Of a stretch of 64,000 nt of DNA, positions 26,833 through 43,081 are shown piece after piece (position 1 is the first letter of the stretch; every line of letters begins with the position of its first letter). Location: contig NZ_NJER01000002.1 of the NCBI RefSeq assembly GCF_002753895.1, forward strand, positions 1-64,000, written 5' to 3'. A program made the translations under genes and the position numbers. The notes beneath the pieces were generated by a model. It saw nothing but the letters and a program-made list of their open reading frames with translations, ran no database searches and was not told the DNA's origin. Source of the stretch: Halobacteriovorax sp. JY17. GTDB taxonomy: Bacteria > Bdellovibrionota > Bacteriovoracia > Bacteriovoracales > Bacteriovoracaceae.

Positions 26833-27258
26833 ATGTCGTCATTCAATCTAGACGTCTACATGCCTGTACTAATCCTCGTGGCCTTTGCCGTCATTATGGT
26901 AGTCGGAGTTTTAGTAGTAGGTATTTTAGTAAGACCTAACAATCCTAATGATCTCAAGTTATCCGCATATGAATGTGGTGAAGAGGCCGTAGGAACTGCT
27001 TGGTCCAACTTTAACATTCGATTCTATGTAATCGCACTTATCTTTATCATCTTTGATGTTGAAGGTGCACTTATGTTTCCAGTCGCTGTTGTCTTTAAGA
27101 AGTTTAATGAAATGGGTGAAGGAACAGTGGTTCTGGCCAGTTTACTATTATTCATTTCTATCTTAATTGAAGGTGTTGTTTATTGCTGGAAAAAAGGCGA
27201 TCTGGACTGGGTAAGAAGTTATCAAACACCTGAAGCAGAAAAGAAAGAGGTTAACTAA
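26833..27258 (+). CDS. nuoA: NADH-quinone oxidoreductase subunit A
   Basis: NuoA is a three-helix subunit near the junction of the complex I arms. The 141-residue protein keeps the Cys-containing loop SAYECGEEAVG (about 44-54) and the motif FNIRFYVIALIFIIFDVEGA (about 60-79). It heads an operon that carries only membrane-arm genes (A, H, J, K, L, M, N). It is directly followed by nuoH with no gap. Confidence 0.95.
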   Translation: MSSFNLDVYMPVLILVAFAVIMVVGVLVVGILVRPNNPNDLKLSAYECGEEAVGTAWSNFNIRFYVIALIFIIFDVEGALMFPVAVVFKKFNEMGEGTVVLASLLLFISILIEGVVYCWKKGDLDWVRSYQTPEAEKKEVN

Positions 27259-28422
27259 ATGAATAGCAGTATCGTTAGTTTTTTTGCAGATAATTTAGGC
27301 TTTGAGGCGACGTCATTTTATGCATTTCTAATTTATGGTTTTGCTTGTTTTATAGTTGTAAATGTTTGCGCTGTAATTGGTGGTTTAGGAACATACGCAG
27401 AAAGAAAAATTTCAGCGGATCTTCAAATGAGACATGGACCAAATAGAGTTGGACCATTTGGGATTCTTCAGTTTCTTGCGGATGGTGTAAAGCTTGTGCT
27501 TAAAGAAGTTATTATTCCAACACAATCAGATAGATTTCTCTTCTTGATTGCACCTCTACTTTGTATGGTTGGAGTATTTGCAACTCTGGCAGTAGTTCCG
27601 TTCTCTAGTGGATTTATTCTTTCAGATTTAAATATTGGTATCTTCTACATTCTTGGTGTTTCATCGCTTGTAGGAGTTGGAATTTTTCTTGGTGGTTATT
27701 CTTCAAATTCTAAGTGGGCAATGCTTGGTGGAATGAGAGGTGCAGCTCAAATTATTTCTTACGAAGTTCCAGTAACTCTTTGTATTCTTTCTATCGTTGT
27801 AATGGCCGGTGGTCTTTCAATGACAACGTTAGTTGAAGGTCAAGGCGGACTTCCACACCAATGGTATATTTTTCATAACCCTTTTACTTTTATTGGGTTC
27901 TTCATTTTCTTTATTGGTATCTTAGCTGAAACAAATAGAGCTCCTTTTGATTTACCCGAAGCGGAATCAGAGCTTGTTTCTGGTTATCATACAGAATATT
28001 CAGGTATGGCCTTCTCGTTTTTCGCATTAGCAGAATATGTAGAAGTATTCGTTGTTTGCGGTGTTGCAGCAGCTCTTTACCTTGGTGGTTACAAGGTTCC
28101 ATTTGATTTAGGCAATGGGGTTTTAATTTCTGAAATTACTGGGGCGCCTAAAATTGTAAGCAACGGTATTGGTCAAATGCTTCAAATTGGTTCATTTTTT
28201 ACAAAGACATTTGCTCTTTACTACGTTGTTATCTGGGTTAGATGGACATTACCAAGACTTAGAATCGATCAGCTAGTAGCACTTTGTTGGAAGTACTTAA
28301 CACCAATTTGTATTTTTAACTTAATTGCAATTGCTACTTGGATGTGGGCTTTTGAAGGTCAATCTGTATACGAATTATTTACTACATGGCTTCACTCCTT
28401 GAGTGCTGGCGGTGGTCACTAA
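27259..28422 (+). CDS. nuoH: NADH-quinone oxidoreductase subunit H
   Basis: NuoH forms part of the quinone-binding chamber. The 387-residue protein shows the signature AERKISADLQMRHGPNRVGPF (within about 47-68; shown in part), FLADGVKLVLKE (about 72-83) and the acidic loop AETNRAPFDLPEAESELV (about 223-240). It ends with the usual helix plus tail (RLRIDQLVALCWKYLTP). Position between nuoA and nuoJ is a reduced version of the standard nuoA-N order. Confidence 0.96.
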   Translation: MNSSIVSFFADNLGFEATSFYAFLIYGFACFIVVNVCAVIGGLGTYAERKISADLQMRHGPNRVGPFGILQFLADGVKLVLKEVIIPTQSDRFLFLIAPLLCMVGVFATLAVVPFSSGFILSDLNIGIFYILGVSSLVGVGIFLGGYSSNSKWAMLGGMRGAAQIISYEVPVTLCILSIVVMAGGLSMTTLVEGQGGLPHQWYIFHNPFTFIGFFIFFIGILAETNRAPFDLPEAESELVSGYHTEYSGMAFSFFALAEYVEVFVVCGVAAALYLGGYKVPFDLGNGVLISEITGAPKIVSNGIGQMLQIGSFFTKTFALYYVVIWVRWTLPRLRIDQLVALCWKYLTPICIFNLIAIATWMWAFEGQSVYELFTTWLHSLSAGGGH

Positions 28423-28443
28423 AATATTAAAGAGGACTTTAGC

Positions 28444-28968
28444 ATGTTTATTAATATCATGTTCATTCTATCTGCCCTATTAGCTCTTGCTGGAGCATAT
28501 GGTGTGGTAGCAAGTAAAAACATTATGCACGCTTGTGTATATTTATTAGCAAGTCTTTTTGGTGTAGCTGGTTTATACGCAACTCTTGGAGCGGATTTCT
28601 TAGCTGCAACTCAGATGGTTGTTTATGCTGGTGGAGTTGTTATCTTAATGCTTTTCGCAGTAATGCTAACAGGTGGACATAGCGAAGCAGTTAATAAGTT
28701 CGGAATAAATAAAATTCCTTCTATGGGAACAGTTAGAACTTTCATTATAGGTACTCTATCTGCTCTAGTTTTAGGTTCTGCAACTTTTAAAATCATTGCA
28801 GGAATGACTAAGCATGTTCAAGGGGAGCTTCCTGCTTTTACATCTTCAGTTGAGAAGATTGGAGTTCTACTTTTAACAGATCATATTTTAGCATTTGAAA
28901 TTTCATCAGTATTACTGCTTGGTGCTCTTGTTGGAGCTGCGGTAATTTCTAGACCAAGGAAACAATAA
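28444..28968 (+). CDS. nuoJ: NADH-quinone oxidoreductase subunit J
   Basis: NuoJ is a five-helix membrane-arm subunit whose third helix changes shape during coupling. The 174-residue protein keeps the pi-bulge helix ATQMVVYAGGVVILMLF (about 56-72). An AGAGGA site precedes the ATG. The stop overlaps the nuoK ATG (TAATG), so J and K are coupled. The normal neighbours nuoI and nuoG are missing. Confidence 0.95.
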   Translation: MFINIMFILSALLALAGAYGVVASKNIMHACVYLLASLFGVAGLYATLGADFLAATQMVVYAGGVVILMLFAVMLTGGHSEAVNKFGINKIPSMGTVRTFIIGTLSALVLGSATFKIIAGMTKHVQGELPAFTSSVEKIGVLLLTDHILAFEISSVLLLGALVGAAVISRPRKQ

Positions 28969-29273
28969 TGGTATCACTTCCATCATTCTTAGTTGTTTCA
29001 CTAATTCTCTTTCTCGCTGGTATTACAGTGATGATTGCAAGAAAGAACGTGATTGCAATTTTACTAGGTATTGAATTGATTCTTAATGCTGCAGCATTAA
29101 ATTTTGCGGCCTATACAAGATTTATAAATAACAATCTTGATGGTCACATTATGTCATTGTTCATCATTGTTATTGCAGCGGCTGAAGCAGCTGTTGGATT
29201 AGCAATTGTTATTAGATTCTATCAAATTAGAGAAAGTATCCATATTGATGATGCTACTCAATTACAAAGCTAA
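28968..29273 (+). CDS. nuoK: NADH-quinone oxidoreductase subunit K
   Basis: NuoK is a three-helix subunit with two membrane glutamates required for proton translocation. In this 101-residue protein both are present: Glu36 in LLGIELILNAAALNF and Glu73 in AAAEAAVGLAIVIRF. Length and topology are standard. Its start overlaps the nuoJ stop by one base. Confidence 0.96.
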   Translation: MVSLPSFLVVSLILFLAGITVMIARKNVIAILLGIELILNAAALNFAAYTRFINNNLDGHIMSLFIIVIAAAEAAVGLAIVIRFYQIRESIHIDDATQLQS

Positions 29274-29290
29274 TTAGGAAGGTTGATTAA

Positions 29291-31471
29291 ATGGATTATA
29301 CTATTTCAACTATTGCACCGATTGTCTTATTTCCGTTCATCGCGTTTGCTATCAATGCATTCATAGCGCGTAAAGCAACAAAAGTCGCAGTATTCATTAG
29401 TTGTGCTGCAATTGCTTTATCGTCGATTTGGGCAATTAGAATTTTTAAAGACTTTATTTTTGGTAATTACTCCACCGATCACTATGTACATAAAGTATTT
29501 ACTTGGTTTGATCTGAATGGAGCAGGTTTAAAATTTAATGTAGATATGGGTGTCTATATAGATAATATGACAGCTGTTATGCTTTTAATGGTAACTGTTG
29601 TTGCAACACTCATTCATATTTTTTCTACTTATTATATGAAAGATGACATGAACTACGGAAGAAACGGAAGGTTCTTTACGTATATGTCTCTTTTTACTTC
29701 AGCAATGCTAGGGCTAGTTCTTTCGGACAACCTCTTTTCAGTATTTATCTTTTGGGAATTAATGGGATTTTGCTCATATAGCTTAATTGGTCACTATTAT
29801 GAAAAAGAAAAAGCTGGAGACGCAAATGTAAAAGCTTTCATGACAACAAGGGTTGGGGATGTATTTTTCTTACTCGGTATTCTAGCTATCTGGACAAATA
29901 TTGGTTCTGTGGGATTCGTAGATATTTATGCTTCTATAGCTGACGGATCATTTGCAACTCATACAGCCCTTGGTATTCCATTGGCTACGTTTGCAGGTCT
30001 TGCAATTTTCATGGGAACAATCGGTAAATCAGCTCAGTTCCCACTTCAAGTTTGGCTTCCAGACGCGATGAATGGGCCTACTCCTTGTTCTGCTCTAATT
30101 CACGCGGCAACAATGGTTGCTGGTGGTGTTTACTTATCACTTAGAATTTATCCAATATTAGACTTGGGTGGGCTTACTACTTTAGTTGCTTATATCGGTG
30201 GGATTACAGCTTTTGGTGCGGCGACAATTGCACTCGTTCAAACAGATTTTAAGGCAGTACTTGCATATTCAACAATTTCTCAACTTGGGTATATGGTTCT
30301 TGGTGTTGGTGTTGGATCTTATAATGCAGCTTTCATGCACTTGATTACTCACGCTATCTTTAAGGCATGTTTATTCCTAAGCGCAGGTTCAGTAATTCAT
30401 TCATTACACGATCACCATACTCATGAGCATGTTCAAGAAATGCCAAGAATGGGTGGTCTTAGACATAAGATGAAATTTACTTGGTTTGCTATGTGGTGTT
30501 GTACTCTTGCGATTGCAGGGATCCCTTTCTTCTCAGGATTTGTATCAAAAGATAGAATTTTAGGTGATGCTCTAATTATGGCCCTTGAAAATAAGGCAAT
30601 GATTGTTCCAGCTCTTCTAGGTTTTGGTGGAGCACTTCTAACAGCATTTTATATGTGTAGAATGATGTTCTTAGCATTTCACGGAGAACCAAGAGATAAG
30701 GATCTGTATGATCATACTCATGAAGAGAAATTCTCATGGAATAGAAACCTTCCACTTTTAATACTTGCTGTATTTACATTGGGTGTTTGGTTTTCAGGAT
30801 CTTTAACAGGTCAAAAATTAATCAAAGTGGCTTCTCCTGAAGGGAAATTAGAATGGTTCTCAACTCTTGTTGCGAAGCCAGATGTATCGAAGTTTTCAGC
30901 TTATAAGAGAGAAGCATGGGCAAGTACTGATACTCGTGAAAAAGTTGCTCCTACTCATTCTCATTATGATCCAGATCATGGAATGACTGAAGAGGAAGCA
31001 CATCATGTTCATCATATACATCATATAGGCGCGATAGTATCAATCATCATTGCTTTTAGTGGTGTATTCATTGCGTATATGATGTATATCAGAAAGTCTT
31101 GGAATCCAGGTTGGTGGGTATCAACTTTTTCTGGTTGGTACAGAGCACTTCAAAATAAATACTATATGGATGACCTTTATATTAAAGGAATTATTCAGAA
31201 AGGGTTACTACCTTTGAATAACTTCCTAGCTTGGTTAGATATGGGGATTTATGACCGTTTCATCGTTGATGGATGGGTAACTGTAAATAGAGGCCTTTAC
31301 ACATTTTCGAAATGGTTTGATGACCTTTGGGTTGATACGATTGCGGTTGATGGAACAGGAGCGAGTGTAAGATTGTTTAATGTTGTTTTAAGAACATTAC
31401 AATCTGGAAAGATTCAGTTCTATTTCATTATGATTATTGTTGTTTTAGCTGGTTACATATTAGCATTATAA
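29291..31471 (+). CDS. nuoL: NADH-quinone oxidoreductase subunit L
   Basis: NuoL is the distal antiporter-like subunit with the long lateral helix. The 726-residue protein has the key helix-5 glutamate in FIFWELMGFCSYSLIGHYY (about 153-171), the lysine segment GKSAQFPLQVWLPDAM (about 239-254) and the C-terminal amphipathic helix and last membrane segment (LQSGKIQFYFIMIIVVLAG, about 703-721). An unusual His-rich segment lies before the lateral helix (THSHYDPDHG, then HHVHHIHHIG, about residues 556-583). AGGA-type ribosome site upstream. Confidence 0.96.
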   Translation: MDYTISTIAPIVLFPFIAFAINAFIARKATKVAVFISCAAIALSSIWAIRIFKDFIFGNYSTDHYVHKVFTWFDLNGAGLKFNVDMGVYIDNMTAVMLLMVTVVATLIHIFSTYYMKDDMNYGRNGRFFTYMSLFTSAMLGLVLSDNLFSVFIFWELMGFCSYSLIGHYYEKEKAGDANVKAFMTTRVGDVFFLLGILAIWTNIGSVGFVDIYASIADGSFATHTALGIPLATFAGLAIFMGTIGKSAQFPLQVWLPDAMNGPTPCSALIHAATMVAGGVYLSLRIYPILDLGGLTTLVAYIGGITAFGAATIALVQTDFKAVLAYSTISQLGYMVLGVGVGSYNAAFMHLITHAIFKACLFLSAGSVIHSLHDHHTHEHVQEMPRMGGLRHKMKFTWFAMWCCTLAIAGIPFFSGFVSKDRILGDALIMALENKAMIVPALLGFGGALLTAFYMCRMMFLAFHGEPRDKDLYDHTHEEKFSWNRNLPLLILAVFTLGVWFSGSLTGQKLIKVASPEGKLEWFSTLVAKPDVSKFSAYKREAWASTDTREKVAPTHSHYDPDHGMTEEEAHHVHHIHHIGAIVSIIIAFSGVFIAYMMYIRKSWNPGWWVSTFSGWYRALQNKYYMDDLYIKGIIQKGLLPLNNFLAWLDMGIYDRFIVDGWVTVNRGLYTFSKWFDDLWVDTIAVDGTGASVRLFNVVLRTLQSGKIQFYFIMIIVVLAGYILAL

Positions 31472-31502
31472 AAATTATTTTCTATATAAAGAGGAGTTGA
31501 CG

Positions 31503-33044
31503 GTGAGTGGAACGTCGAATTTATTAAACTGGATTCTTTGGATGCCGATGCTTGGTGCTCTAGGTGTATTACTTATTCCTAAAGCAAAAGAAAACGCGAT
31601 TAGATTTTGGGCCCTAGCAAATACTGCTATAACAATGGTTCTTACTGCTAAGCTTTGGATGGGATTTGATAATTCTATCGCAGGTATGCAAGAAGCATTT
31701 ACAGTAAAAATTCCTTGGATTAAGCAATTCAATATTTTCTATCACCTCGGTGTAGATGGAATTTCACTTCCAATGATACTTCTAACTTCAGTTATACTAT
31801 TTATTTGTATTCTAAGTTCATGGACAGTTAAGAAACAAATTAAAGGATACTTTGCTTTAATTCTCTTCTTACAAAGTACTATTTACGGAGTGTTCTTCTC
31901 CTTAGATTTTTTCTTATTCTATGTTTACTGGGAAGTAATGCTAATTCCAATGTTCTTCTTAATCGGTATTTGGGGTGGAGAGAACAGAGAGTATGCCGCT
32001 GTTAAGTTTTTTCTTTATACATTCTTTGGTTCAATCCTAATGCTTGTTGGTATGGTTGCTCTTTATCACGCAACTGGAAAAGGAGTAGACTCATTTGATC
32101 TACTTGCTCTTAAGGCCAGTGCTGATGAATTTATTAAAATGAAAGTAAGCCTATTTGGAACAGAAGTAGCATTTGATAAACTATTCTTCATGTTTATGTT
32201 CATTGGTTTTGCAATTAAGGTTCCAGTATTTCCATTCCACACGTGGCTACCACATGCTCACGTTCAGGCACCAACAGCAATTTCAGTAATTCTGGCAGGT
32301 GTTCTACTTAAAATGGGTACATACGGTTTCTTAAGAATTGCCTTCCCTATTTTTCCAGGTGCAGCAGTTTACTTTTCTAACTTCATAGCAATTCTTGGAT
32401 TAATAAATATTATCTATGGTGCTTTCTGTGCAATGGCACAAACAGATGTTAAGAAGCTTATCGCATACTCTTCAGTATCTCACATGGGATTTGTGATGAT
32501 TGGTATGGCCGCAATGACTTCTCAGGGTCTTAACGGTGCAGTTCTTCAGATGTTTAACCACGGTACTTCTGCAGCAATGATGTTCCTTCTAATTGGTGTT
32601 CTTTATGAAAGATCTCACCATAGATGGATTGTTAGACCAGATGGATCTAAAGGTTTTGGTGGTCTTTATACTCAGATGCCAACATTTTCGATTGTATTTA
32701 TTATCGGAATGTTCGCGGCCATGGGTCTTCCAGGATTGTCAGGATTTATTTCAGAAGCATTAATCTTCTTTGGAATTTATCAGAAATTTACAACAATGAC
32801 TGTTCTAGCACTTCTAGGTCTTCTTATTGGTGCAGCTTACCTACTGTGGATGTTCAAGAGAATGTTCTTTGGAGAAGTTGTTGAAGAATGTAAATCATAT
32901 ACAGATATGAATGCGAGAGAAATTTTCTATATGCTGCCACTTTGTATTGCTGTAATTCTTTTTGGAATTTGGCCATCACCAATTTTGGACATCATGAAAG
33001 CTTCAGTTAATTCTCTAGTTACTTTATTGGCGAATTATCAGTAA
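31503..33044 (+). CDS. nuoM: NADH-quinone oxidoreductase subunit M
   Basis: NuoM is the middle antiporter-like subunit. The 513-residue protein has the helix-5 glutamate (YVYWEVMLIPMFFLIGIWGG, about 140-159), the helix-7 lysine (GFAIKVPVFPFHTWLPHAH, about 236-254) and ISEALIFFG near the helix-12 region. I place the start at GTG 31503: GAGGAG at 31491-31496 is then 6 bases upstream, whereas TTG at 31497 would touch the ribosome site directly. Confidence 0.95.
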   Translation: MSGTSNLLNWILWMPMLGALGVLLIPKAKENAIRFWALANTAITMVLTAKLWMGFDNSIAGMQEAFTVKIPWIKQFNIFYHLGVDGISLPMILLTSVILFICILSSWTVKKQIKGYFALILFLQSTIYGVFFSLDFFLFYVYWEVMLIPMFFLIGIWGGENREYAAVKFFLYTFFGSILMLVGMVALYHATGKGVDSFDLLALKASADEFIKMKVSLFGTEVAFDKLFFMFMFIGFAIKVPVFPFHTWLPHAHVQAPTAISVILAGVLLKMGTYGFLRIAFPIFPGAAVYFSNFIAILGLINIIYGAFCAMAQTDVKKLIAYSSVSHMGFVMIGMAAMTSQGLNGAVLQMFNHGTSAAMMFLLIGVLYERSHHRWIVRPDGSKGFGGLYTQMPTFSIVFIIGMFAAMGLPGLSGFISEALIFFGIYQKFTTMTVLALLGLLIGAAYLLWMFKRMFFGEVVEECKSYTDMNAREIFYMLPLCIAVILFGIWPSPILDIMKASVNSLVTLLANYQ

Positions 33045-33056
33045 AAAGGTGAAGAA

Positions 33057-34532
33057 ATGCTTTTAAATTATTTAGCAAGTATAGGTCGATTTATCCCAGA
33101 GATTGTTCTGGTTGTAACAATGATTGGCCTTCTGTTTGTTGAGTCTACTTATGGCGAAAATGATAAAGGAAGCAAGAAAGGCTACCTTTATGCTACAGCC
33201 TATATAGGTTTAATCCTTTCGTTGGCTCAACTTGTTGGTTCTCTTGGAGATGCTCCAGGTGGAATATTTACAAATTCTCTGACTATTGATCCTTTTAGTA
33301 CTCTAGCTAAAATCATTATGGTGATCGGAACAGCTGGAGCAACTTATCTAAGTCGTAGATCAAGTGATATTTACAGCGAGCTAAAAGGTGAATTTGTTAT
33401 TATATCAATTGGTGTTTTAATTGGTGGAATGCTCTTAGCTTCTGCTAATAATATGCTTATGCTGTATATAGGAATTGAAACTCTTTCAATTCTTTCTTAT
33501 GTTCTTGCATCTTTAAAAAAGAACGATGATAGATCATCTGAAGCAGGACTTAAATATTCACTATATGGCGGAATTTCAGCAGGGATTATGCTCTTTGGTT
33601 TAAGTCATATCTTTGGTGTTGTTGGAACAATCCAATTTACAGGTATGATTGCTAAGTTACAGACCTTAGATACAATGCAAATAGCTATCCTAATGCCGTC
33701 GTTCTTAATGTTCTTCGCAGGTATCGGATACAAGATTGCTTGTGTTCCATTTCATATGTGGGCTCCAGATGTCTACGAAGGTTCGCCTCTTCCTGTCACA
33801 ACTTTCTTCTCCATAGTGCCTAAGATTGCAGGAATTGCAGTATTAGTTAGAGTTACTATGGCGTTCTTTGGTGGGGAGACAACAGCTCTTCAGATGACTT
33901 GGGTGGGAACTTTAAGTGTAATCGCAGCTCTAACAATGACAGTTGGAAATGTTTCAGCAATTGGGCAAAGATCAGTTAAAAGAATGTTAGCTTACTCATC
34001 AATTAGTCATGCAGGTATGATGATGATGGGTGTCGTTTGCTTGACTGAAATTGGAGTTACAGGAATTCTGTTCTACGGTATCACTTACCTATTTATGACT
34101 CTTGTTGCTTTCTTTATTACATCTTTTGTTCAAGACGAATATGGAAATGATCATTTTGAAAGATTTAATGGCCTTATTTTTAAGCACCCATTAATGGCCA
34201 TTTTTATGATTATCACAATGTTCTCACTTGCTGGAATTCCTCCATTTAGTGGATTCGTAGCAAAGTTTAATATTTTTAATGCTTTAATTGATAAGAACTT
34301 CTATGTTTTAGCAATCATAGCGGGATTAAATTCTGTTGTAGCTCTATACTACTATCTTAAGATTGTAAGATTAATGGTATTTAAGCAGAGCGAGAGTGAT
34401 GAGAAGATTGGAGGATTTGTTTTTTCTAATCAAGTCGCTATTGCAGTACTAACTGTTCCAGTCGTCTTACTCGGTGTATTCTGGGAAAGTATCATTCATG
34501 TTGCTAATGGAGCTAAGATCTTTATCCAATAA
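33057..34532 (+). CDS. nuoN: NADH-quinone oxidoreductase subunit N
   Basis: NuoN is the proximal antiporter-like subunit. The 491-residue protein has the helix-5 glutamate (MLYIGIETLSILSYVLASL, about 137-155), the lysine segment GIGYKIACVPFHMWAPDVYEG (within about 222-242; shown in part) and the late helix SLAGIPPFSGFVAKFNIF (about 388-405). It is the last recognisable nuo gene. Its stop overlaps the start of the first gene of a second seven-gene membrane cluster (TAATG), so transcription and translation run on. Confidence 0.96.
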   Translation: MLLNYLASIGRFIPEIVLVVTMIGLLFVESTYGENDKGSKKGYLYATAYIGLILSLAQLVGSLGDAPGGIFTNSLTIDPFSTLAKIIMVIGTAGATYLSRRSSDIYSELKGEFVIISIGVLIGGMLLASANNMLMLYIGIETLSILSYVLASLKKNDDRSSEAGLKYSLYGGISAGIMLFGLSHIFGVVGTIQFTGMIAKLQTLDTMQIAILMPSFLMFFAGIGYKIACVPFHMWAPDVYEGSPLPVTTFFSIVPKIAGIAVLVRVTMAFFGGETTALQMTWVGTLSVIAALTMTVGNVSAIGQRSVKRMLAYSSISHAGMMMMGVVCLTEIGVTGILFYGITYLFMTLVAFFITSFVQDEYGNDHFERFNGLIFKHPLMAIFMIITMFSLAGIPPFSGFVAKFNIFNALIDKNFYVLAIIAGLNSVVALYYYLKIVRLMVFKQSESDEKIGGFVFSNQVAIAVLTVPVVLLGVFWESIIHVANGAKIFIQ

Positions 34533-34855
34533 TGGAAGGTCTAAACTTCAATATATTTATAATTATTTCATCAGGTCTAAGCATTTTCTTAATTGTTTGG
34601 GCCTTTTTTATTAAAACACAGAAAAAAGACTTTCAAACAGATAGCGCGAAGCAATTCGTAACCAGCTCTGTTTTAAACCTCAGAACAACCTTGCAAATCT
34701 CACTTAGTATTTTATCAATTTTTATTTTAACTCTGATCATAAGAGGTTGGGAGTTGGGCGAGCTTTTTACAAGGGAAAACCTTTTATTAATAGTACCTTT
34801 TATTCTATCATTAGTTGTAGTTTTACTAATGGAACCACTGTCACGGAAGAGCTAG
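34532..34855 (+). CDS. Three-helix membrane protein, diverged NuoA-like
   Basis: A 107-residue protein with three hydrophobic helices (about 7-26, 53-70 and 82-101), the size and layout of NuoA. Its start LNFNIFIIIS resembles the FNLDVYMPVL start of the operon's own NuoA. The conserved NuoA Cys loop and FxxRFY motif are absent. The NuoA-like call rests mainly on position: it is first of seven genes whose order and sizes parallel nuoA-H-J-K-L-M-N immediately upstream. The ATG overlaps the nuoN stop. Not recognisable on its own. Confidence 0.6.
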   Translation: MEGLNFNIFIIISSGLSIFLIVWAFFIKTQKKDFQTDSAKQFVTSSVLNLRTTLQISLSILSIFILTLIIRGWELGELFTRENLLLIVPFILSLVVVLLMEPLSRKS

Positions 34856-34856
34856 T

Positions 34857-35753
34857 TTGGATAGTATAAGTAATGGGTTCGCTCCTGTTGTGGCCACAAC
34901 ATTTATGATCTTATTGTTTACTGTGATGATAGGATTTATTGATAAAGCTCTTAGACACGAGGCTTTGGATACTTATAAGGAATCGCTAAGGAACTTTAGA
35001 ATAGTTAGGACCTTTAAGATAAGCTTCTTAAACACTTCTATTTTCTCTCTCACACTTTCTTTAATAAGATTTAATATACTTTTTTACCTTTCAATTAAAA
35101 CGATTGGAAATATGCTTTATGGGAGTGATATTTTTCTTTTTGATTTAACTTACATAATCACTTTCGTAATAGTCTGCGAGTTTTTATTTTTTTTAAAAAC
35201 CAAGAAAAAGAATGAGATAAATGAAGTCTCTACACTTCCACTAGTAATAGTGATTACTCTTTCTTTAATTGGAGCTTTAAAATTAAGTTCAAACCTCATA
35301 CTTGAAAAAAATATATTCTGGCTACCGAGTGGCCTTTACTTAAGTAATTGGACAATATTAGAGTTTCCTTTGATCTTAATTCCTATGTTCTATATTCTGA
35401 TTGCTCTTTATACAAGAATAATAAAATCATCTGTCGCTTTAAGATATAATACCCTTGACCGTTTATTTGATTTTTTAAGTAATAATTTGCTCTATATTTA
35501 TATGGCCTGCTTCTTTCTTAGGTCAGTTATGGGGGGAGTCATTGATATAAACTTAATAGGATTTAAAGAATTAGCTTTTTTAAACTCTTTTCTATCGTTT
35601 CTAATTAAGTTTGGAGTAATAACAGTTGGGACAAGACTGCTAATAAGATTTTTACCATCTATTGTGGACGTAAGGAAAAAGAACTTGCTCCCATTAGCAG
35701 TTCTGATTTTATTTAATATACTTCTCGTGCATTTTGCGAAAGGAAGCTTATGA
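34857..35753 (+). CDS. Multi-helix membrane protein, diverged NuoH-like
   Basis: A 298-residue protein with about eight hydrophobic helices, starting at TTG 34857 after GGAAGAG. Its C-terminus (FLPSIVDVRKKNLLPLAVL, about 265-283) lines up with the NuoH end (TLPRLRIDQLVALCWKYL): a basic cytoplasmic turn between the last two helices. The NuoH quinone-site loops (ERKxSADLQ, AETNRAPFD) are not present, so it cannot act as a normal NuoH. Second in a seven-gene set collinear with nuoAHJKLMN. It overlaps the next gene by four bases (ATGA). Confidence 0.65.
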   Translation: MDSISNGFAPVVATTFMILLFTVMIGFIDKALRHEALDTYKESLRNFRIVRTFKISFLNTSIFSLTLSLIRFNILFYLSIKTIGNMLYGSDIFLFDLTYIITFVIVCEFLFFLKTKKKNEINEVSTLPLVIVITLSLIGALKLSSNLILEKNIFWLPSGLYLSNWTILEFPLILIPMFYILIALYTRIIKSSVALRYNTLDRLFDFLSNNLLYIYMACFFLRSVMGGVIDINLIGFKELAFLNSFLSFLIKFGVITVGTRLLIRFLPSIVDVRKKNLLPLAVLILFNILLVHFAKGSL

Positions 35754-36217
35754 TTACTTTCTTAATTGTCATCGTTTTTATTATTGCAAACTTCTCAATG
35801 ATAATTTCAAATAAATCTAACTTTAAAATTTTATTTAGTTTTTTAGTAAGTTTGATTGTCTTTATATTTTTAAATAACTTGAAATATGAATATGCAGATC
35901 TTTATCTGAATTTTATTACACTAATGAATTTTATGGCGCTTAGTTATGTGAAATTTTCTCAAACGGGACGCATCCGCGTGTTACCCTCAAAACGTAATAA
36001 TAAAACAAATAATATGATGCCAATCGTAAGCTCACTTGTTTCAACACTTTTAGTATTAATTCTTTTGAATGGAGTTAGTGATGAAATTCTAGAAAGAGAT
36101 ATTCTTTCGTTAAGAGAGACGAGTCAGGATTACTTTCATGATGTGAATATAATGTTTGTTGCAGGAATTAGTTTCACTGTACTCTTTATATTCCTGATGA
36201 AAAGAGTGAGAGAATAA
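35750..36217 (+). CDS. Membrane protein, diverged NuoJ-like
   Basis: A 155-residue protein with five hydrophobic segments. Its first 75 residues align in spacing with NuoJ: ISNKSNFKILFSFLVSLIV against ASKNIMHACVYLLASLFGV, then ADLYLNFITLMNFMALS against ADFLAATQMVVYAGGVV, and a final helix followed by a basic tail (FLMKRVRE against VISRPRKQ). The glycine pair of the NuoJ third helix is lost. Third of seven collinear genes. Its stop overlaps the next start by one base. Confidence 0.68.
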   Translation: MITFLIVIVFIIANFSMIISNKSNFKILFSFLVSLIVFIFLNNLKYEYADLYLNFITLMNFMALSYVKFSQTGRIRVLPSKRNNKTNNMMPIVSSLVSTLLVLILLNGVSDEILERDILSLRETSQDYFHDVNIMFVAGISFTVLFIFLMKRVRE

Positions 36218-36498
36218 TGACATATATACTACTCATCTCTTTAATTTTGATCACATCTATAGTTTCAATTTATATGATGTTTGCAAGACAAAATGCAATT
36301 GACTATTTCTTGGGTCTCACCCATATATTTACACTATTCATACTTGTTACTTACTATATAGAATTAGTGCATAAAGTATCATTTGAAGGGTCTTTAATAA
36401 CTATTTTTGGAGTTATCTTCTCAGTGGCGATTCCTTCTGCTGTGATAATAAGATTTAAGTATTATCAAGACAAAGGTAATAGTAATATAGAAGGATAA
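36217..36498 (+). CDS. Three-helix membrane protein, diverged NuoK-like
   Basis: The 93-residue protein is the clearest shadow copy. ARQNAIDYFLGLTHI (about 23-37) aligns with NuoK ARKNVIAILLGIELI, and the end SAVIIRFKYYQD (about 74-85) aligns with LAIVIRFYQIRE. Both membrane glutamates essential in NuoK are replaced: the Glu36 position is Thr35, and the Glu73 position is about Ser69. It should therefore not carry protons as NuoK does. It sits fourth of seven, where nuoK sits in the upstream set. Confidence 0.78.
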   Translation: MTYILLISLILITSIVSIYMMFARQNAIDYFLGLTHIFTLFILVTYYIELVHKVSFEGSLITIFGVIFSVAIPSAVIIRFKYYQDKGNSNIEG

Positions 36499-36499
36499 G

Positions 36500-38020
36500 A
36501 TGTTTGAATTAATTATACTTATTTCTATGGCCCTTGTTGTAATGTCTAAAAAGATTACAAATAAGTATGTGCCAATTTTTGGAAGATTACTTCAGATGGT
36601 AATTTCCATTTACTGTCTAAGTTCAGGTAAATTGGGCCTTGGTGCAAACCTTCTAGGATTTGAAGAAACCTCTTCACTTATTTATATCTTTACGATAGCT
36701 CTAATTTCTTTTGATCTTGATATAAATCTTAAAGATATAAAAATAAGAGAAATATTATTTCTATGTTCTAATGCCTTACTCTTGTCTGATCAAATTTCAA
36801 CAATTCTTATCACTATATTCTTAATTTTATTAATTTATCTCACTACACGCAGGGCTTATTTAATTGATTATATTTCAATATTTATTTTTAGTCTTATTTC
36901 TTTGATTTACTATGCTGAACTTTCGACAACAATATTAACTCTAAAAGATAGCTATTATCTTTATTTGACACCAACGTCTGAGTATTTATTCTTCCCTCTT
37001 TTAATTGCTTTTTGTTTTATAGAGTACATGAGGCTCTGGGGAAATCTAAGAAGAATAAGTACACTTCTTGTCGTAACTCCATTGTTTCTTATTTATAAAC
37101 TAAAGTTAGCAAATAATATTGATACTCAAGTAGCACTCTTTCTTCTTCCTTTATTCCTGCTTCCAATACTTGGTGAATGTTGCAAGCTATTTAAGAAAAA
37201 AACGATATCTTACGCAATTAATATATTATTTCAAACATCCTTAATGGCGAGTTTTACTTATGTATTATTTGCCAAGTATGAGTTGGCAATTGTTTCAAGT
37301 CTAGTTCTTCTCTTAATTTTGACTATTTATTCAGTTATGAAAAAGATGGTGGAAAGAAATGAGAGAATAATCATAACTTATTTTACGCTAATTAACTTGG
37401 CCGCAATTCCTCTTAGTTATTCAGGTCTTCTCTTTATTGATCTGATAAGTCTTAGTGGAAATTTTGTTGTAACAATTTCTTTGTTAGTAGGAGCTTTAGT
37501 CTCGTGGATAATCTTCGGTTTTGTAATACGAAAACACTCTGATGAACTTTTTATAAACGTACTTGAATCAACGTTTGAAGTGAAGCTTACTACTGGATTA
37601 GCTTTTATCCTAACAATATTAATTATATTCTTTAATCTATCTTTATTTGTAAGCAGTGAGAAGAATGGTTATAAGTTGATGCAAGTATTATTTCATACTA
37701 AAGAAAAAGTCGCAGAGGTAGGCCTTTTAAGTTATAACCTGAATTTTATAATCTATATTCTTTTGTTTGTTGTTGTAGGATATTTTCTCAAAGTAATAGA
37801 TGAGCGAAAAGCATGGCGTGGAGCATTCGTTCTTAATGAAGCCGTTAAAAGTGTAACACCTTCAAGAATTGAGGTTATAAATACATTAAAGATATCTAAA
37901 GAAAAAGATACACTTAATAAGGTGAACTTTTCTACAGAGGGGCAGACTTCAAGCTTTCAAATTTCATTCTATATACTAATTTTATTTTTGATTGTTAGTT
38001 TAGCGATAATTGAGTTTTAA
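36500..38020 (+). CDS. Multi-helix membrane protein, diverged NuoL-like
   Basis: A 506-residue protein with about 15 hydrophobic helices. LLLSDQISTILITIFLILL (about 93-111) aligns with NuoL LVLSDNLFSVFIFWELMGF, but the key glutamate is replaced. A segment NLAAIPLSYSGLLFID near residue 300 resembles the antiporter-family motif SLAGIPPFSGFVAK. The C-terminus keeps a charged amphipathic stretch and a last helix (SSFQISFYILILFLIVSLA) matching NuoL GKIQFYFIMIIVVLAG, so a lateral helix may be retained. About 220 residues shorter than NuoL. Confidence 0.7.
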   Translation: MFELIILISMALVVMSKKITNKYVPIFGRLLQMVISIYCLSSGKLGLGANLLGFEETSSLIYIFTIALISFDLDINLKDIKIREILFLCSNALLLSDQISTILITIFLILLIYLTTRRAYLIDYISIFIFSLISLIYYAELSTTILTLKDSYYLYLTPTSEYLFFPLLIAFCFIEYMRLWGNLRRISTLLVVTPLFLIYKLKLANNIDTQVALFLLPLFLLPILGECCKLFKKKTISYAINILFQTSLMASFTYVLFAKYELAIVSSLVLLLILTIYSVMKKMVERNERIIITYFTLINLAAIPLSYSGLLFIDLISLSGNFVVTISLLVGALVSWIIFGFVIRKHSDELFINVLESTFEVKLTTGLAFILTILIIFFNLSLFVSSEKNGYKLMQVLFHTKEKVAEVGLLSYNLNFIIYILLFVVVGYFLKVIDERKAWRGAFVLNEAVKSVTPSRIEVINTLKISKEKDTLNKVNFSTEGQTSSFQISFYILILFLIVSLAIIEF

Positions 38021-38818
38021 ATGATACTAATTTTTTTAATTTTTACAATATTCACAATTTTTCTTCGCTTAAGAGAATCGAGAAGCATACAAGAATCAAT
38101 TCCTTTTCTTATTGTAAGTATTATTTCTTGGATTTCATTCTTATTCTATATTTACTTAGATAATGAATATTATCTACTTGCTACATACGAAATAACATCA
38201 TTTGTGATTATTCTTCTTTTTGGAATAAGACTTGAGAGGTTCTTTCAACTTAAGTTTTTGGGGTTCTTTTTTCTTTCCTTAGTCTTTATATTTGGCGGTA
38301 TTTTTAAACAAGAAATATTATTCATGTATGTCGTTCTATCAACGATAGTTGCCCTCTCATCTAATTTTCTGGCTGATAGTAAGGTAAAGTATCCTTTCAT
38401 TCAGTTTAATATTATATCATTGATGAAGGCAAGAGAGTTTATCACTTCTCCAGTTGCTGTGGATGTTTTTCTCATTGCAATGGCTTTCTTGTTAATTTTT
38501 CTAATAGTAAATAAGTGTAGAAAATTCTCATCGGAGTCAATTTTTATCATGACAATACTTTGGCTAGGAGTATTTACATTCTCTATTAATGTTTATTTCT
38601 TACTTCTTGCTATTTTTCTATTACTATTGATTTCTCTTTTAGAGGTATTTAAAATAGGACTCTTTAGAAAAAAAGAAGATTTATTCATTTATATTGTTTC
38701 TCTAATAATTACCATTCCTTTAGCAAGGGCTTCTCTTACTTCTGCGATGGCCTCTCTCGCAATTTTTACATTCTGTCTTTTTATAAATAGAAGAATGATT
38801 GAAGGAGAAGAGCTATGA
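38021..38818 (+). CDS. Multi-helix membrane protein, diverged NuoM-like
   Basis: A 265-residue protein with about eight helices, half the length of NuoM. YIYLDNEYYLLATYEITSF (about 43-61) then ILLFGIRLERFFQLKFLGF aligns with NuoM FFSLDFFLFYVYWEVMLIP then FFLIGIWGGENREYAAVKF, keeping the helix-5 glutamate as Glu57. The matching helix-7 lysine and the later half of the antiporter fold are not evident. Sixth of seven collinear genes: it starts directly after the previous stop and overlaps the next gene by four bases. Confidence 0.65.
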   Translation: MILIFLIFTIFTIFLRLRESRSIQESIPFLIVSIISWISFLFYIYLDNEYYLLATYEITSFVIILLFGIRLERFFQLKFLGFFFLSLVFIFGGIFKQEILFMYVVLSTIVALSSNFLADSKVKYPFIQFNIISLMKAREFITSPVAVDVFLIAMAFLLIFLIVNKCRKFSSESIFIMTILWLGVFTFSINVYFLLLAIFLLLLISLLEVFKIGLFRKKEDLFIYIVSLIITIPLARASLTSAMASLAIFTFCLFINRRMIEGEEL

Positions 38819-39819
38819 ATGAATTTATTAATAAATATGATTGGCAGATGACATCACAAATTTTTCTTATTATAGGAATAGTGGTTTCGATAGTGTTTCA
38901 TAAGAGATTTAAAAAGTATGATGAAGCCCTTGTTTCTTTACCCTTTTGTTTCTGTTTGGGCATTTCTATTTTTAATTCAGATAATTTAATAGCATTTATA
39001 TTTTTTTCGGAGATTATTTTTAATCTTTCAAATATCTTATTTAGAAATAGATTTAAGCAGTATGATAATAAATTCTTTGAAAATGTTCGTTATGTGTTTT
39101 GGGTTATACTTCTATTTTGTTATTACTACTCCTTTAACACCTTTACTTTTAATGCGGTTCCAAAGAATACGGGGCTTGAGCTAACGTTTATTGTTGTTTT
39201 GCTATTGAGCATTGTGTTTATTAAAATAATTTACTTCTTTTTAAGAAGTGATCATATAAAAGAAAGCATCAACGAAGTTGTTGGTTATGAAATATTTACT
39301 GTTTTTGTATTTAGCCTGAAGTCTATTCATATCTCTTCTGGCTTAATGGATTCGATTCTTCCAAGGCATCACGGTGTAATTGATGTACTTATTCTTCTCT
39401 ATATTGTTTTGGGAAGTGTTCTATGTATTAAGTTTTATAAAAGCGAAAGTATAGAAAAGTTAAAATCAATGATACGTGGCCTTGTTATCATATCTCTATT
39501 TCCTCTTCTTGTGATAGGAGAGAATGTATTTTGGGAGGATTATATAGCTTTTTCAGTATTATTAGTCACGACACTTCTCTTCTTTGATCTAGTTGTAAGT
39601 TTTGCTAAGAGTGGAAGATTTAAGTCATTACTTGTCTTCGTTCTTCTTTGTTTACTCTCAGGAGTGAGTCCCTTTGGACATCTTTTTAAGATTTTTAAAA
39701 GCTTAGTTGATAATGGTAGTCAGGAACTGTTCTTCTTAGGAATAACAATTAGCACTTTAACATTGGCACTTATTTCAAAGAAGCTTTTCATGCTTTGTCT
39801 TAATGAGCGTGAAGCTTAA
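38815..39819 (+). CDS. Multi-helix membrane protein, diverged NuoN-like
   Basis: A 334-residue protein with about ten helices. NSDNLIAFIFFSEIIFNLS (about 54-72) aligns with NuoN SANNMLMLYIGIETLSILS, keeping the helix-5 glutamate as Glu66. VFIKIIYFF aligns with the GYKIACVPF lysine segment (Lys137), and FSLKSIHISSG with IVPKIAGIAVL (Lys169). LLSGVSPFGHLFKIFKSL near 285-302 matches SLAGIPPFSGFVAKFNIF. It retains more of the ion-pathway residues than the other shadow genes. Last gene of the operon. Confidence 0.72.
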   Translation: MNEFINKYDWQMTSQIFLIIGIVVSIVFHKRFKKYDEALVSLPFCFCLGISIFNSDNLIAFIFFSEIIFNLSNILFRNRFKQYDNKFFENVRYVFWVILLFCYYYSFNTFTFNAVPKNTGLELTFIVVLLLSIVFIKIIYFFLRSDHIKESINEVVGYEIFTVFVFSLKSIHISSGLMDSILPRHHGVIDVLILLYIVLGSVLCIKFYKSESIEKLKSMIRGLVIISLFPLLVIGENVFWEDYIAFSVLLVTTLLFFDLVVSFAKSGRFKSLLVFVLLCLLSGVSPFGHLFKIFKSLVDNGSQELFFLGITISTLTLALISKKLFMLCLNEREA

Positions 39820-39922
39820 GCATTTGAAATAATAGGAAATTCTTTCCACACTCCTCATTAAACACTTAGCGCTATTATGCGATATAATTACTTAGTATAA
39901 GTATTTATTTTAATAGGCTTTG

Positions 39923-42900
39923 ATGGGTAAGAAATACAGAGTTAAATTATTAAATGATCGTGTGGTTGGTCCTTTTGTTACGGAGCAAATCGGTGAGTTA
40001 TTCGCTAAGGGTCACCTTTTAGGGGATGAGAGGTGCCAAATTTTTCCTGTCGGCGATTGGCAGAGTTTAAAAGACTTTGCAGAAATTAAAGCAATGCTCC
40101 TAAAAGTTACTCAAGAGGGGAATTTATCTGTTGAAAATTCTGGAGACAGAACTCAAACTTTCGCAAGAATAAATAAGCCTAAAAATGATAGTAATAAAAA
40201 TCCAGTGAAAGATAAAAACTTTCAAGAATTTCAATATAAGAAAGAAGATTTAAGTCGTGTAGATTATGGAGCGTTAGAAGAAAAGTATCAAGAAGATGTA
40301 AAAGATTTAGAGTCCATTGAGGAAGAACTTGGGCACGTAAAGGAAGAGGAAAAATCGGAGAATGATGACGGAATTGAAAAAACAAGAATTATCAATCGAA
40401 GTGCATTGAATAATGTTGATGTTGATAAAACAGTCATTGTAAACCCCAATCCTTTTCTAGAAAAAATAGAGGAAGTTGAAAATCCGTTAGAAGTAGAGAG
40501 TAATTCAGAAGAAGACGATAAAGAGGAAGAGAAAAAAGAAGAAGTTCTAAACACAAGTGAAGCAACAGAGTTTATAAATGTAAGAGAGTTGTTACCAGAT
40601 TTAAAACAAGTTGTAAGTGTTGCAGAGAAAGAATTTGAAGATAAAGTTCGAGAAGAAGCCTTAGATGACGAAGAGCCTGTTAATAAAAAAGAAGAAGAAG
40701 TTGAAGAGGTAAAGAAAGCTAAGAGAAAGAAGACAACTCCTATTGTGGCACTTGCCTTTATTGTTATTCTTTGGGTATTACTTTTTCCTGAAAAAGAAGT
40801 TAAAAGTCTAGATCCAGTTAGAGTTAAAATCCAATTTCCAATACAGGCCGAATTCTTAGATAGTGTCAAAAGTGTTGAAGCTTTAAATAAAGGACTTGAA
40901 TACTACTCTCAGGGAACATACTTATCCAAAATAAAGGCCTCCTTAGAATTTAGTAAATCTTTACATCATCAATTCAAAAACAACAAAGCATTAGGTTATT
41001 TGATACTTTCTTATGCTGAAGTTTTTGAAAATTCTAGTGATGAAAATAAAGCGGTCAGAACTCTTTTTAAATTAATTGAAATTGCTCGTAGTAAACTTTT
41101 GTCAGATGCTAACGTCGCTGCAGGAAGTGCACTTTTCTATAAAAAGATAGGCAAAGCTCAGAGTGCAAATAGAATTCTTGAAAATTTTATTAGAATTAAT
41201 AAACCTACAGTAAGTGTCCTAACGATTTATCTAGATGTCCTCATTGAAGTGGGTAACTATATAGAAGCAAGGAAAGTTTTTGATCTTCTTTTAAAAGTTA
41301 AAAAGAAGAGAGAGGCAACATACTTAAGCCTTATCAATTTCTATGAAGAAAATGACTTACAAGATAAAGTAAGTGAACTTCTTACTGAGGCGAGAAACTC
41401 TTATCCAAAGTCAATTCCTCTTCTTCTTAAATATGCCAAGTACCAATTCGATATTGGAGATTACAAGAAGTATGAGGCAGTATTAAAAGTTATTAAGACT
41501 CTAAACTCTGGTAGATCACCCAGATACTACGCAAAATTTCTTGAATATACGGGTATACTTGCGGCAATTAAAAAAGATAACAACCAAGCAGCGAAACTTT
41601 TTAAGCTAGCTCTTAGGATTCATGAATCTGATGAATTGAGGTCTAAACTTTCTCTTTTAGAGCTTGGTGGGTCAACTAACGTCGAGAAGATTATTCTCGA
41701 AAGTAAGATTGTTGAGCTAATGAAAAAAGCGAAAAATGCAGTAAAAGAAAGAAAGTGGGAGACAGCTTTTATTAATGCAATTAAGGCTTCAGATTTGGAC
41801 AGCTCTTATATTCCCTCACAACTTCTTCTCGGAAATATTCAGGTTAAGCGAGGATATTATGAGGATGCCATAGGTACATTCAACAGAATGAAAAAAGAAT
41901 ACCCACTTAATAAGAAGATAAATGTCTATCTTGTTGAGGCCTATATCAAAGCATTCAAATTGAATAAGGCAGAAATTGAGCTTAGGACAATCTCTCAGTC
42001 TAAATTAAGTGATAGTTATATTTTTTACTCTCTTCAAGCTAAGTACTATTTAAGAAGAGAATTTTATGAGAATGCTATTTCTAAATTTAAAGAAAGTATA
42101 AAGAGAAATCCAGTAAATGATGATGATTACTTTCAGCTTGCTAAAATCTATCTTAAGTTTAGAAAGTTCAAGGCCGCAAAGAATATGCTAACGAGATCTA
42201 TTGCTCTTGATCCTGTTAACGTTGAGTATCACACAGCCTACGCAAATATTCTCTACGAGCTAGAGGGAGCTGAAACAGCAATTGGTTATCTTAGAAACTT
42301 ATTAAAGCAAAATAGAGATAATCCAAAAATTCTCGGTGACATTGCAATCTACTACTATAAGAATGGAGAGAATCTAGAGTTTCAAGAGTATAAGAAAAGA
42401 ATTGAAAAACTTGCAAGTACCGACGCTAGTTTCTATGAATTTTTAATTTATTCTGCCGAGTTAGATGATCGTGATGATGATGTTATTAAATACGGAAAAG
42501 AGTTAATTAAAATTAACCCAGGTGATTTAGACGTACAAATAAAACTTGGAAAAAGCCTTTATGACAAGGGACTTTATAAAGAAGCTCTTGCTATGTTCGA
42601 GTCAATCCTTGCTCGTTTAGCTTCTTTTCCAAGAGCGAACTACTATCTTGCTAAAACATATATAAAATTAAAAGATATTAAGAAGGCCAAGGAAATGGCA
42701 GATAAGGAAGTGGCAAATAATCCGACACTAGAGTTTGGTTATTTTATTTTAGGGGAAGTTTTTCGAATTCAAAAAAAATATAGAGAAGCAGAATTAAACT
42801 TCAAGAAGTCGATCTCAAGAAATGGCCGCTATGTTGAGGCCTTAATGGGGATGGGTTGGATAAAGTGGAAGCAAGGCTATCTTGATCGTGCTAGAGAATA

Positions 42901-43081
42901 TTATTTAAAGGCCCTTAAAGAAAATCAGAATAATGGTGAAATCCATAGAGCGCTTGGTTATATCTACAAAGAGATTGGTCAGAGTACTTTAGCTATTGAC
43001 TCTTTTAGAGTTTATCTTGATCTAACACCAGCGGCGAAAGATAGAGCACAAATTCAAAATTTAATGAAGAGTTTAAGGTAG
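39923..43081 (+). CDS. GYF-domain, membrane-anchored TPR protein
   Basis: A 1052-residue protein, start at ATG 39923 (a TTG lies just before it). Residues about 4-60 form a GYF_2-like domain (VVGPFVTEQIGELFAKGHL, WQSLKDF). A long acidic linker (about 90-265) contains three threonine motifs of similar form (DRTQTFARI, EKTRIINRS, DKTVIVNPN). One membrane helix follows (TTPIVALAFIVILWVLLF, about 271-288), then about 20 TPR-like repeats to the end (for example LGKSLYDKGLYKEALAMFE). The protein should have a cytoplasmic adaptor head and a periplasmic TPR scaffold. Domain style recalls gliding/envelope proteins of myxobacteria and Bdellovibrio. Function unknown. Confidence 0.85.
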   Translation: MGKKYRVKLLNDRVVGPFVTEQIGELFAKGHLLGDERCQIFPVGDWQSLKDFAEIKAMLLKVTQEGNLSVENSGDRTQTFARINKPKNDSNKNPVKDKNFQEFQYKKEDLSRVDYGALEEKYQEDVKDLESIEEELGHVKEEEKSENDDGIEKTRIINRSALNNVDVDKTVIVNPNPFLEKIEEVENPLEVESNSEEDDKEEEKKEEVLNTSEATEFINVRELLPDLKQVVSVAEKEFEDKVREEALDDEEPVNKKEEEVEEVKKAKRKKTTPIVALAFIVILWVLLFPEKEVKSLDPVRVKIQFPIQAEFLDSVKSVEALNKGLEYYSQGTYLSKIKASLEFSKSLHHQFKNNKALGYLILSYAEVFENSSDENKAVRTLFKLIEIARSKLLSDANVAAGSALFYKKIGKAQSANRILENFIRINKPTVSVLTIYLDVLIEVGNYIEARKVFDLLLKVKKKREATYLSLINFYEENDLQDKVSELLTEARNSYPKSIPLLLKYAKYQFDIGDYKKYEAVLKVIKTLNSGRSPRYYAKFLEYTGILAAIKKDNNQAAKLFKLALRIHESDELRSKLSLLELGGSTNVEKIILESKIVELMKKAKNAVKERKWETAFINAIKASDLDSSYIPSQLLLGNIQVKRGYYEDAIGTFNRMKKEYPLNKKINVYLVEAYIKAFKLNKAEIELRTISQSKLSDSYIFYSLQAKYYLRREFYENAISKFKESIKRNPVNDDDYFQLAKIYLKFRKFKAAKNMLTRSIALDPVNVEYHTAYANILYELEGAETAIGYLRNLLKQNRDNPKILGDIAIYYYKNGENLEFQEYKKRIEKLASTDASFYEFLIYSAELDDRDDDVIKYGKELIKINPGDLDVQIKLGKSLYDKGLYKEALAMFESILARLASFPRANYYLAKTYIKLKDIKKAKEMADKEVANNPTLEFGYFILGEVFRIQKKYREAELNFKKSISRNGRYVEALMGMGWIKWKQGYLDRAREYYLKALKENQNNGEIHRALGYIYKEIGQSTLAIDSFRVYLDLTPAAKDRAQIQNLMKSLR

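Follow-up and report, generated by a model that had tools for sequence, protein, structure and literature searches.

The window analysed here, the first 64,000 nucleotides of contig NZ_NJER01000002.1 of Halobacteriovorax sp. JY17 (assembly GCF_002753895.1), carries seven membrane-protein genes (34532–39819, + strand) directly downstream of nuoA-H-J-K-L-M-N, the membrane arm of a canonical complex I. We refer to this seven-gene second arm as block 2, to the window genus as g1, and to the order-level group that includes the window's family as f1. Our analysis confirmed that the seven genes are extremely diverged, in-order counterparts of nuoA, H, J, K, L, M and N. Block 2 is probably an eroded remnant: the membrane arm of the complex I that the lineage first possessed, displaced by an acquired complex I and kept as a non-pumping assembly.

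Block 2 consists of seven open reading frames, whose presence, integrity and overlap had been correctly described in the original prediction. They encode a NuoA-like subunit a (107 amino acids (aa), 34532–34855), a NuoH-like subunit h (298 aa, 34857–35753), a NuoJ-like subunit j (155 aa, 35750–36217), a NuoK-like subunit k (93 aa, 36217–36498), a NuoL-like subunit l (506 aa, 36500–38020), a subunit m in the NuoM position (265 aa, about half of NuoM, 38021–38818) and a NuoN-like subunit n (334 aa, 38815–39819). All frames are intact, successive starts and stops overlap or lie at most 3 nt apart, and the first gene begins on the final base of nuoN. The canonical A, H, J, K, L, M and N proteins encoded upstream measure 141, 387, 174, 101, 726, 515 and 491 aa, respectively, the 513 aa given earlier for NuoM reflecting the choice of start codon. 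By length, the block-2 proteins follow the ranking of their Nuo counterparts (rho = 0.89, permutation P = 0.006), as had been claimed. The numbers of predicted transmembrane (TM) helices (canonical/block 2) were 3/3 for A, 8/8 for H, 5/5 for J, 3/3 for K, 16/15 for L, 14/10 for M and 14/10 for N.

Searches of the seven proteins against Pfam and NCBIfam returned nothing above cut-off. The best Pfam match of k was Oxidored_q2 (NuoK), which was in register over residues 8–92 and below cut-off (E = 0.038), and hhalign aligned k with NuoK at 20% over 34 columns. The other six proteins were undetectable when compared directly with Nuo profiles. The short local motif pairings proposed in the original prediction would therefore not have been proof by themselves. 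The JY17 genome (3.47 Mb, five contigs) contains exactly three PF00361 (antiporter-domain) matches, all of them canonical NuoL, NuoM and NuoN, and block 2 is therefore invisible to family models.

The relationship of block 2 to Nuo was established because intermediate genera bridge it by profile. Block 2 of genera g4 and g19 is plainly nuoAHJKLMN: g4 matches Nuo at high significance, and a 7 × 7 hhalign matrix of the g4/g19 block versus true Nuo placed all seven proteins on the diagonal (97.5–100%). The blocks of other genera were linked to g4/g19 at 98.8% for H and 89.5% for J, and the window-genus block was linked to these other genera at 81% for H and 91% for J, with a weak full-length link for a. 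The H2 profile matched h with E = 1.2e-60, the h row itself being part of the query alignment. Iterative hidden Markov models built from g4/g19 recovered about 17 H homologues without reaching g1, with reversed decoys scoring near threshold, and found nothing beyond g4/g19 for J; one set of genus-by-genus hhalign comparisons gave a reliable link for H only. Position, size and helix count identify a, and largely also k, as putative NuoA and NuoK, and m is a candidate NuoM counterpart in the window genus purely by position, order and size.

The structures of l and n were predicted with AlphaFold2 (AF2). For l (predicted local distance difference test (pLDDT) 54.7), each of the top 50 VIA-align PDB rows was an antiporter subunit, from complex I, Mrp, MBS or formate hydrogenlyase (FHL) (Z 9.7–11.9), and the modelled protein has an antiporter-type fold. 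For n (pLDDT 52.5), such subunits, from complex I or complexes related to it, made up 29 of the 50 VIA-align rows; many of the alignments spanned residues 4–334 with Z 8–10, and the remaining rows were mostly designed helical bundles. The fold of n is thus probably of the antiporter type as well, both assignments being based on a second-look VIA-align ranking. The idea that the seven genes encode unrelated membrane transporters resembling Nuo by size only would fit the lack of a significant direct Pfam or NCBIfam match, but it is barely credible given the intermediates, the helix counts, the fold of l and the redox genes linked to the block.

Block 2 was present in 5/5 same-genus genomes, with the 14-gene order kept and most sizes within a few residues, and most other genera of the order have seven genes in the same place between nuoN and a gene for a tetratricopeptide repeat (TPR) protein. 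About 20 genera carry the block, and it has been lost in g36, g27, g39, g6 and g10. Within the genus, amino acid identity of the block-2 proteins ranged from 24–39% (l) to 47–74% (k), compared with 80–99% for the canonical Nuo proteins. A search for k across the order found it in the window genus only; weak matches in G088, G087, G076, G072 and G064 map to unrelated parts of those genomes and were rejected as chance. The ratio of nonsynonymous to synonymous substitution rates (dN/dS) of block 2 was about 0.10–0.27 where computable, with dS near saturation, and that of the canonical genes was 0.01–0.07. Block 2 is under purifying selection; because its frames are intact and dN/dS is well below 1, its change is not neutral decay. 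A decaying pseudo-operon on its way out would explain the stepwise loss of residues described below and the disappearance of the block from five genera. We regard it as very improbable, since seven intact frames of conserved size persist in all five genus genomes, dN/dS is far from neutral and about 20 genera still carry the block.

A second set of NuoB, NuoC and NuoD domains is encoded at another locus of the same genome; it lies outside the window and was thus invisible to the original prediction. We designate the second NuoB-like, fused NuoCD-like and NuoI-like proteins B2, CD2 and I2. Their genes (C1:1219309-1221831; with the lipoprotein gene, C1:1219309-1223412) form an operon for a lipoprotein (506 aa), a NuoB-like protein (173 aa), a NuoCD fusion (538 aa) and a NuoI-like ferredoxin (133 aa), with no membrane genes beside it and no E, F or G genes. 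The conserved lipoprotein (about 500 aa, L026 10893-12413, − strand) has no Pfam match; its gene stands ahead of B2-CD2-I2 in most genomes and for the most part occurs where CD2 does, and g39 has it without CD2. In g4 and g28 the same locus is a full operon in the order lipoprotein-B-CD-E-F-G-I. Degenerate F- and G-like genes remain in g42 and g44, with an E-like gene also in g42, and the other genera have B-CD-I only. In a co-occurrence table coded by hand, CD2 was present in 20/20 genera with block 2 and an inspected CD2 locus and absent in 2/4 genera without block 2 (Fisher P = 0.02). On these gene distributions, we propose that B2-CD2-I2 and block 2 may be the two halves of one complex.

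The evolutionary origin of block 2 was examined with FastTree (Shimodaira-Hasegawa-like support values) in the genera whose block 2 was readable for trees (g4, g19, g35, g18, g23 and g25). In the H+L+M+N tree, block 2 of g4, g19, g35 and g18 came together as a single clade. The neighbouring canonical nuo lay outside it and grouped with a Bacteroidota-labelled operon. The record of this comparison operon (L202) is labelled as a Phocaeicola massiliensis plasmid, and its Bacteroidota label is unverified. Block 2 of g4 shares about 38–39% identity with a complete but unrelated nuo operon in g36 and 31% with its own neighbour. An additional nuo operon, complete and with NuoEFG-like genes, accompanies canonical nuo in genus g36 (L129-L134) and some others (L166, L159); g36 also carries CD2 remnants. 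The CD2 proteins formed one clade and, once rooted on canonical and E. coli sequences, neighboured the fused NuoCD of other Bdellovibrionota families, a sister position that depends on the rooting; these NuoCD genes lie in B-CD-E-F-G-I operons in most cases inspected.

The position of mfd (23109–26609, − strand) in the window and in other genomes bears on the same question. In the window, the Bacteroidota-type canonical nuoA-H-J-K-L-M-N (26833–34532, + strand) lies between mfd and block 2. In G061 and G063, which belong to the window's family, mfd is followed immediately by block 2 and then by the TPR gene with no canonical block there, and no canonical NuoN or NuoD was found in either. The arms of both fell inside the block-2 clade in the H+L+N tree. 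The NuoM slot of the native arm in G063 (L208 4933-6388) has the right length and no long open frame, which may reflect a broken gene or an assembly error. G262, from another Bdellovibrionota family, has a nuoA-H-J set immediately adjacent to mfd; this arm fell in a group (support 1.0) that comprised block 2 and related native-type operons, and its H was 44% identical to the second H of g4 compared with 35% to canonical H.

The original prediction was partly supported: it was right about the in-order, extremely diverged counterparts, and its reading of block 2 as a tandem duplication of the neighbouring arm needs to be turned round. Because of the trees and the mfd-adjacent arms in G061, G063 and G262, the apparent copy is probably the lineage's native arm, and the normal nuo the later arrival, inserted between mfd and the native arm. 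An in-situ duplication followed by extreme divergence, which we initially expected, would account for the adjacency, the identical gene order and the shared operon, and long-branch artefacts could draw fast-evolving sequences away from their true sister. We dropped it on the trees and the mfd-adjacent arms and now consider it quite improbable: block 2 is a clade apart from canonical nuo, that of g4 is closer to the g36 operon than to its own neighbour, a native-lineage arm stands beside mfd in another family, and a separate CD2/B2 lineage is common to the phylum.

The original prediction had further suggested either a separate complex or supernumerary subunits. The former gained support from the dedicated core of B2, CD2 and I2, and the latter lost ground: G061 and G063 keep the arm in genomes where canonical nuo was not found, which argues against block 2 being a mere accessory of complex I. 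A double membrane arm, in which the seven proteins join canonical complex I, would suit the shared operon, the overlapping genes and their probable co-expression. It is nonetheless unlikely, because besides these two genomes and the existence of the core, many genera have canonical nuo without block 2.

Functional residues of the second complex were compared in E. coli numbering; L, M and N of g1 cannot be securely aligned. The pump residues considered were E36 and E72 of NuoK and, in NuoL/M/N, the Glu of TM5, the Lys of TM7/8 and the Lys/Glu of TM12. Genus g4 retains NuoK E36 and E72, NuoL E144, K229 and K399, NuoM E144, K234, K265 and E407, NuoN E133, K217, K247 and K395, NuoH E36, E157, D213 and E216, and NuoA D79 and E81; its one lost residue among those checked is NuoJ Tyr59, replaced by Asn. 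Several pump and quinone (Q)-chamber residues are gone in g19, and nearly all are gone in g1, subject to the uncertain L/M/N alignment. In the window, neither of the two channel glutamates of k (E36 and E72 of E. coli) is conserved, nor are the Q-chamber acids of h. At the CD2 quinone site, g4 has HPATH and Tyr, the window protein has the Tyr with the second His changed to Lys, and others lack both. B2 has all four cysteine ligands of cluster N2 in the window genus, and this cysteine pattern is absent in g3, g35, g44, g24 and g36. The window I2 has two complete C-x2-C-x2-C-x3-C (4Fe-4S) motifs, and both clusters are present in most genera. No PF01512 (NuoF) match was found in the 100%-complete JY17 genome, whereas the NADH module is present in g4 and g28. 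These comparisons form a graded series from the residue-complete g4 through the half-eroded g19 to the stripped window genus and g36.

In the window genus, the second complex might still work as a non-pumping electron carrier that passes electrons from some donor through the I2 clusters and N2 to quinone. The four N2 cysteines of B2, the two complete I2 motifs and the quinone-site Tyr of CD2 argue for this, and the lack of NuoF would imply a donor other than NADH. The Lys at the second quinone-site His and the loss of the Q-chamber acids of h argue against it, and we regard it as a tentative alternative of rather low probability. A redox role also cannot be the common reason for retention, because g3, g35, g44, g24 and g36 have lost the N2 ligands but retain the B2 and CD2 genes.

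The following history would account for block 2 as an eroded native arm. In other families of the phylum, the genes for complex I of this lineage form a B-CD-E-F-G-I operon and, in the cases where one was found, an A-H-J... arm adjoining mfd. The f1 ancestor would then have acquired a second, NuoEFG-less complex I of another lineage, whose AHJKLMN arm landed between mfd and the native arm. Freed from energy conservation, the native complex would have eroded, losing the NADH module first, then the pump and quinone-site residues and, in some genera, the N2 ligands, while its antiporter subunits shrank. The remnant in the JY17 genome is a ten-gene set of seven membrane subunits with the NuoB-like, fused NuoCD-like and NuoI-like proteins. 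Their products may still come together as a non-pumping membrane body with the shape of complex I. Its role would be a different one, for example as a structural platform or an anchor, and some residual electron transfer may persist in the window genus.

Several observations weigh against this account, in addition to the near-saturated dS and the rooting-dependent position of CD2. Direct sequence homology of a, l, m and n to Nuo was not significant in the window genus, the AF2 models of l and n are of low confidence, and Foldseek searches with these models gave no match below E 0.001. The newcomer and the native arm have the same split order A-H-J-K-L-M-N, which simple transfer fails to explain, and a rough species tree nests G061 and G063, so that the newcomer was more likely lost from them than never present. 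The physical assembly of block 2 with B2-CD2-I2 is something we infer; g36 and g10 have CD2 without block 2, and G028 and G123 keep CD2 with no NuoH or NuoN detected there. The arm and core modules can therefore part, and the core, as judged from G028 and G123, may have a task of its own. In both of these genomes (L204 and L205, respectively), the lipoprotein, a small gene in the B position and CD2 persist.

Compared with known systems, the second complex resembles the 14-subunit NDH-1 in its seven membrane subunits in the usual order and its NuoB/CD/I-like core, and that of g4 is complete with NuoEFG-like genes. In the window genus it differs from NDH-1 in lacking NuoEFG, in its mostly unconserved pump and Q-chamber residues, in its shortened antiporters and in the location of its core at another locus. 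The unusual complex I of Nitrospira has one antiporter subunit added to a working pump. Both cases involve extra membrane-arm gene copies in one genome, but the copies described here make up an entire second arm with an ancestry of its own, which has persisted despite its decay. The antiporter-like fold of l also occurs in group 4 membrane-bound hydrogenases and Mrp antiporters; however, the CxxC nickel-iron ligands of hydrogenases are missing from CD2 over its aligned N-terminal part, and the gene set is of the complex I type. The canonical complex I of the JY17 genome (26833-34532 with C1:1702902-1705758, L027 8903-11759) is itself of the 11-subunit type, because the genome has no NuoF. Loss of NuoEFG and an 11-subunit complex I are already known from Desulfitobacterium hafniense (PMC11238625). 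That enzyme likewise comprises A, B, C/D, H, I, J, K, L, M and N without the NADH module, but it keeps the energy-coupling engine (PMC11238625), whereas the relic has lost most of the residues on which that engine depends. Neither a second or decayed complex I in these bacteria nor the retention of a displaced complex I in an eroded state turned up in the searchable open literature, with subscription papers outside the scope, in line with the original statement that no such system was known.

All genes from nuoA to the TPR gene are tightly packed on the + strand, with mfd on the − strand. The TPR gene (39920–43081, + strand; 1053 aa) marks the downstream border, standing after block 2 or straight after nuoN where the block has been lost. 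A TPR protein of about 1000 aa is encoded downstream of the nuo region in nearly all genera, with block 2 present or absent.

Few membrane machines are as conserved and as constrained as complex I, and annotation with Pfam and NCBIfam sees block 2 as anonymous membrane proteins only. The order appears to offer a clear case of complex I replacement with the old one left in place, and its graded series of genera is a natural dissection of which parts of complex I can go, and in which order, while the gene sets persist. There is a credible chance that the block-2 complex has a new function. We give about even chances to the fuller reading that it is a complex-I-derived machine without energy conservation, converted module by module (to a non-redox form in some genera) after the acquired complex I replaced it and put to a new use in the cell, and that selection still maintains it throughout a family of predatory-type bacteria, including two that have the arm but lack the complex that took its place. 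Such a machine would point to an undescribed, non-respiratory use of the complex I scaffold.

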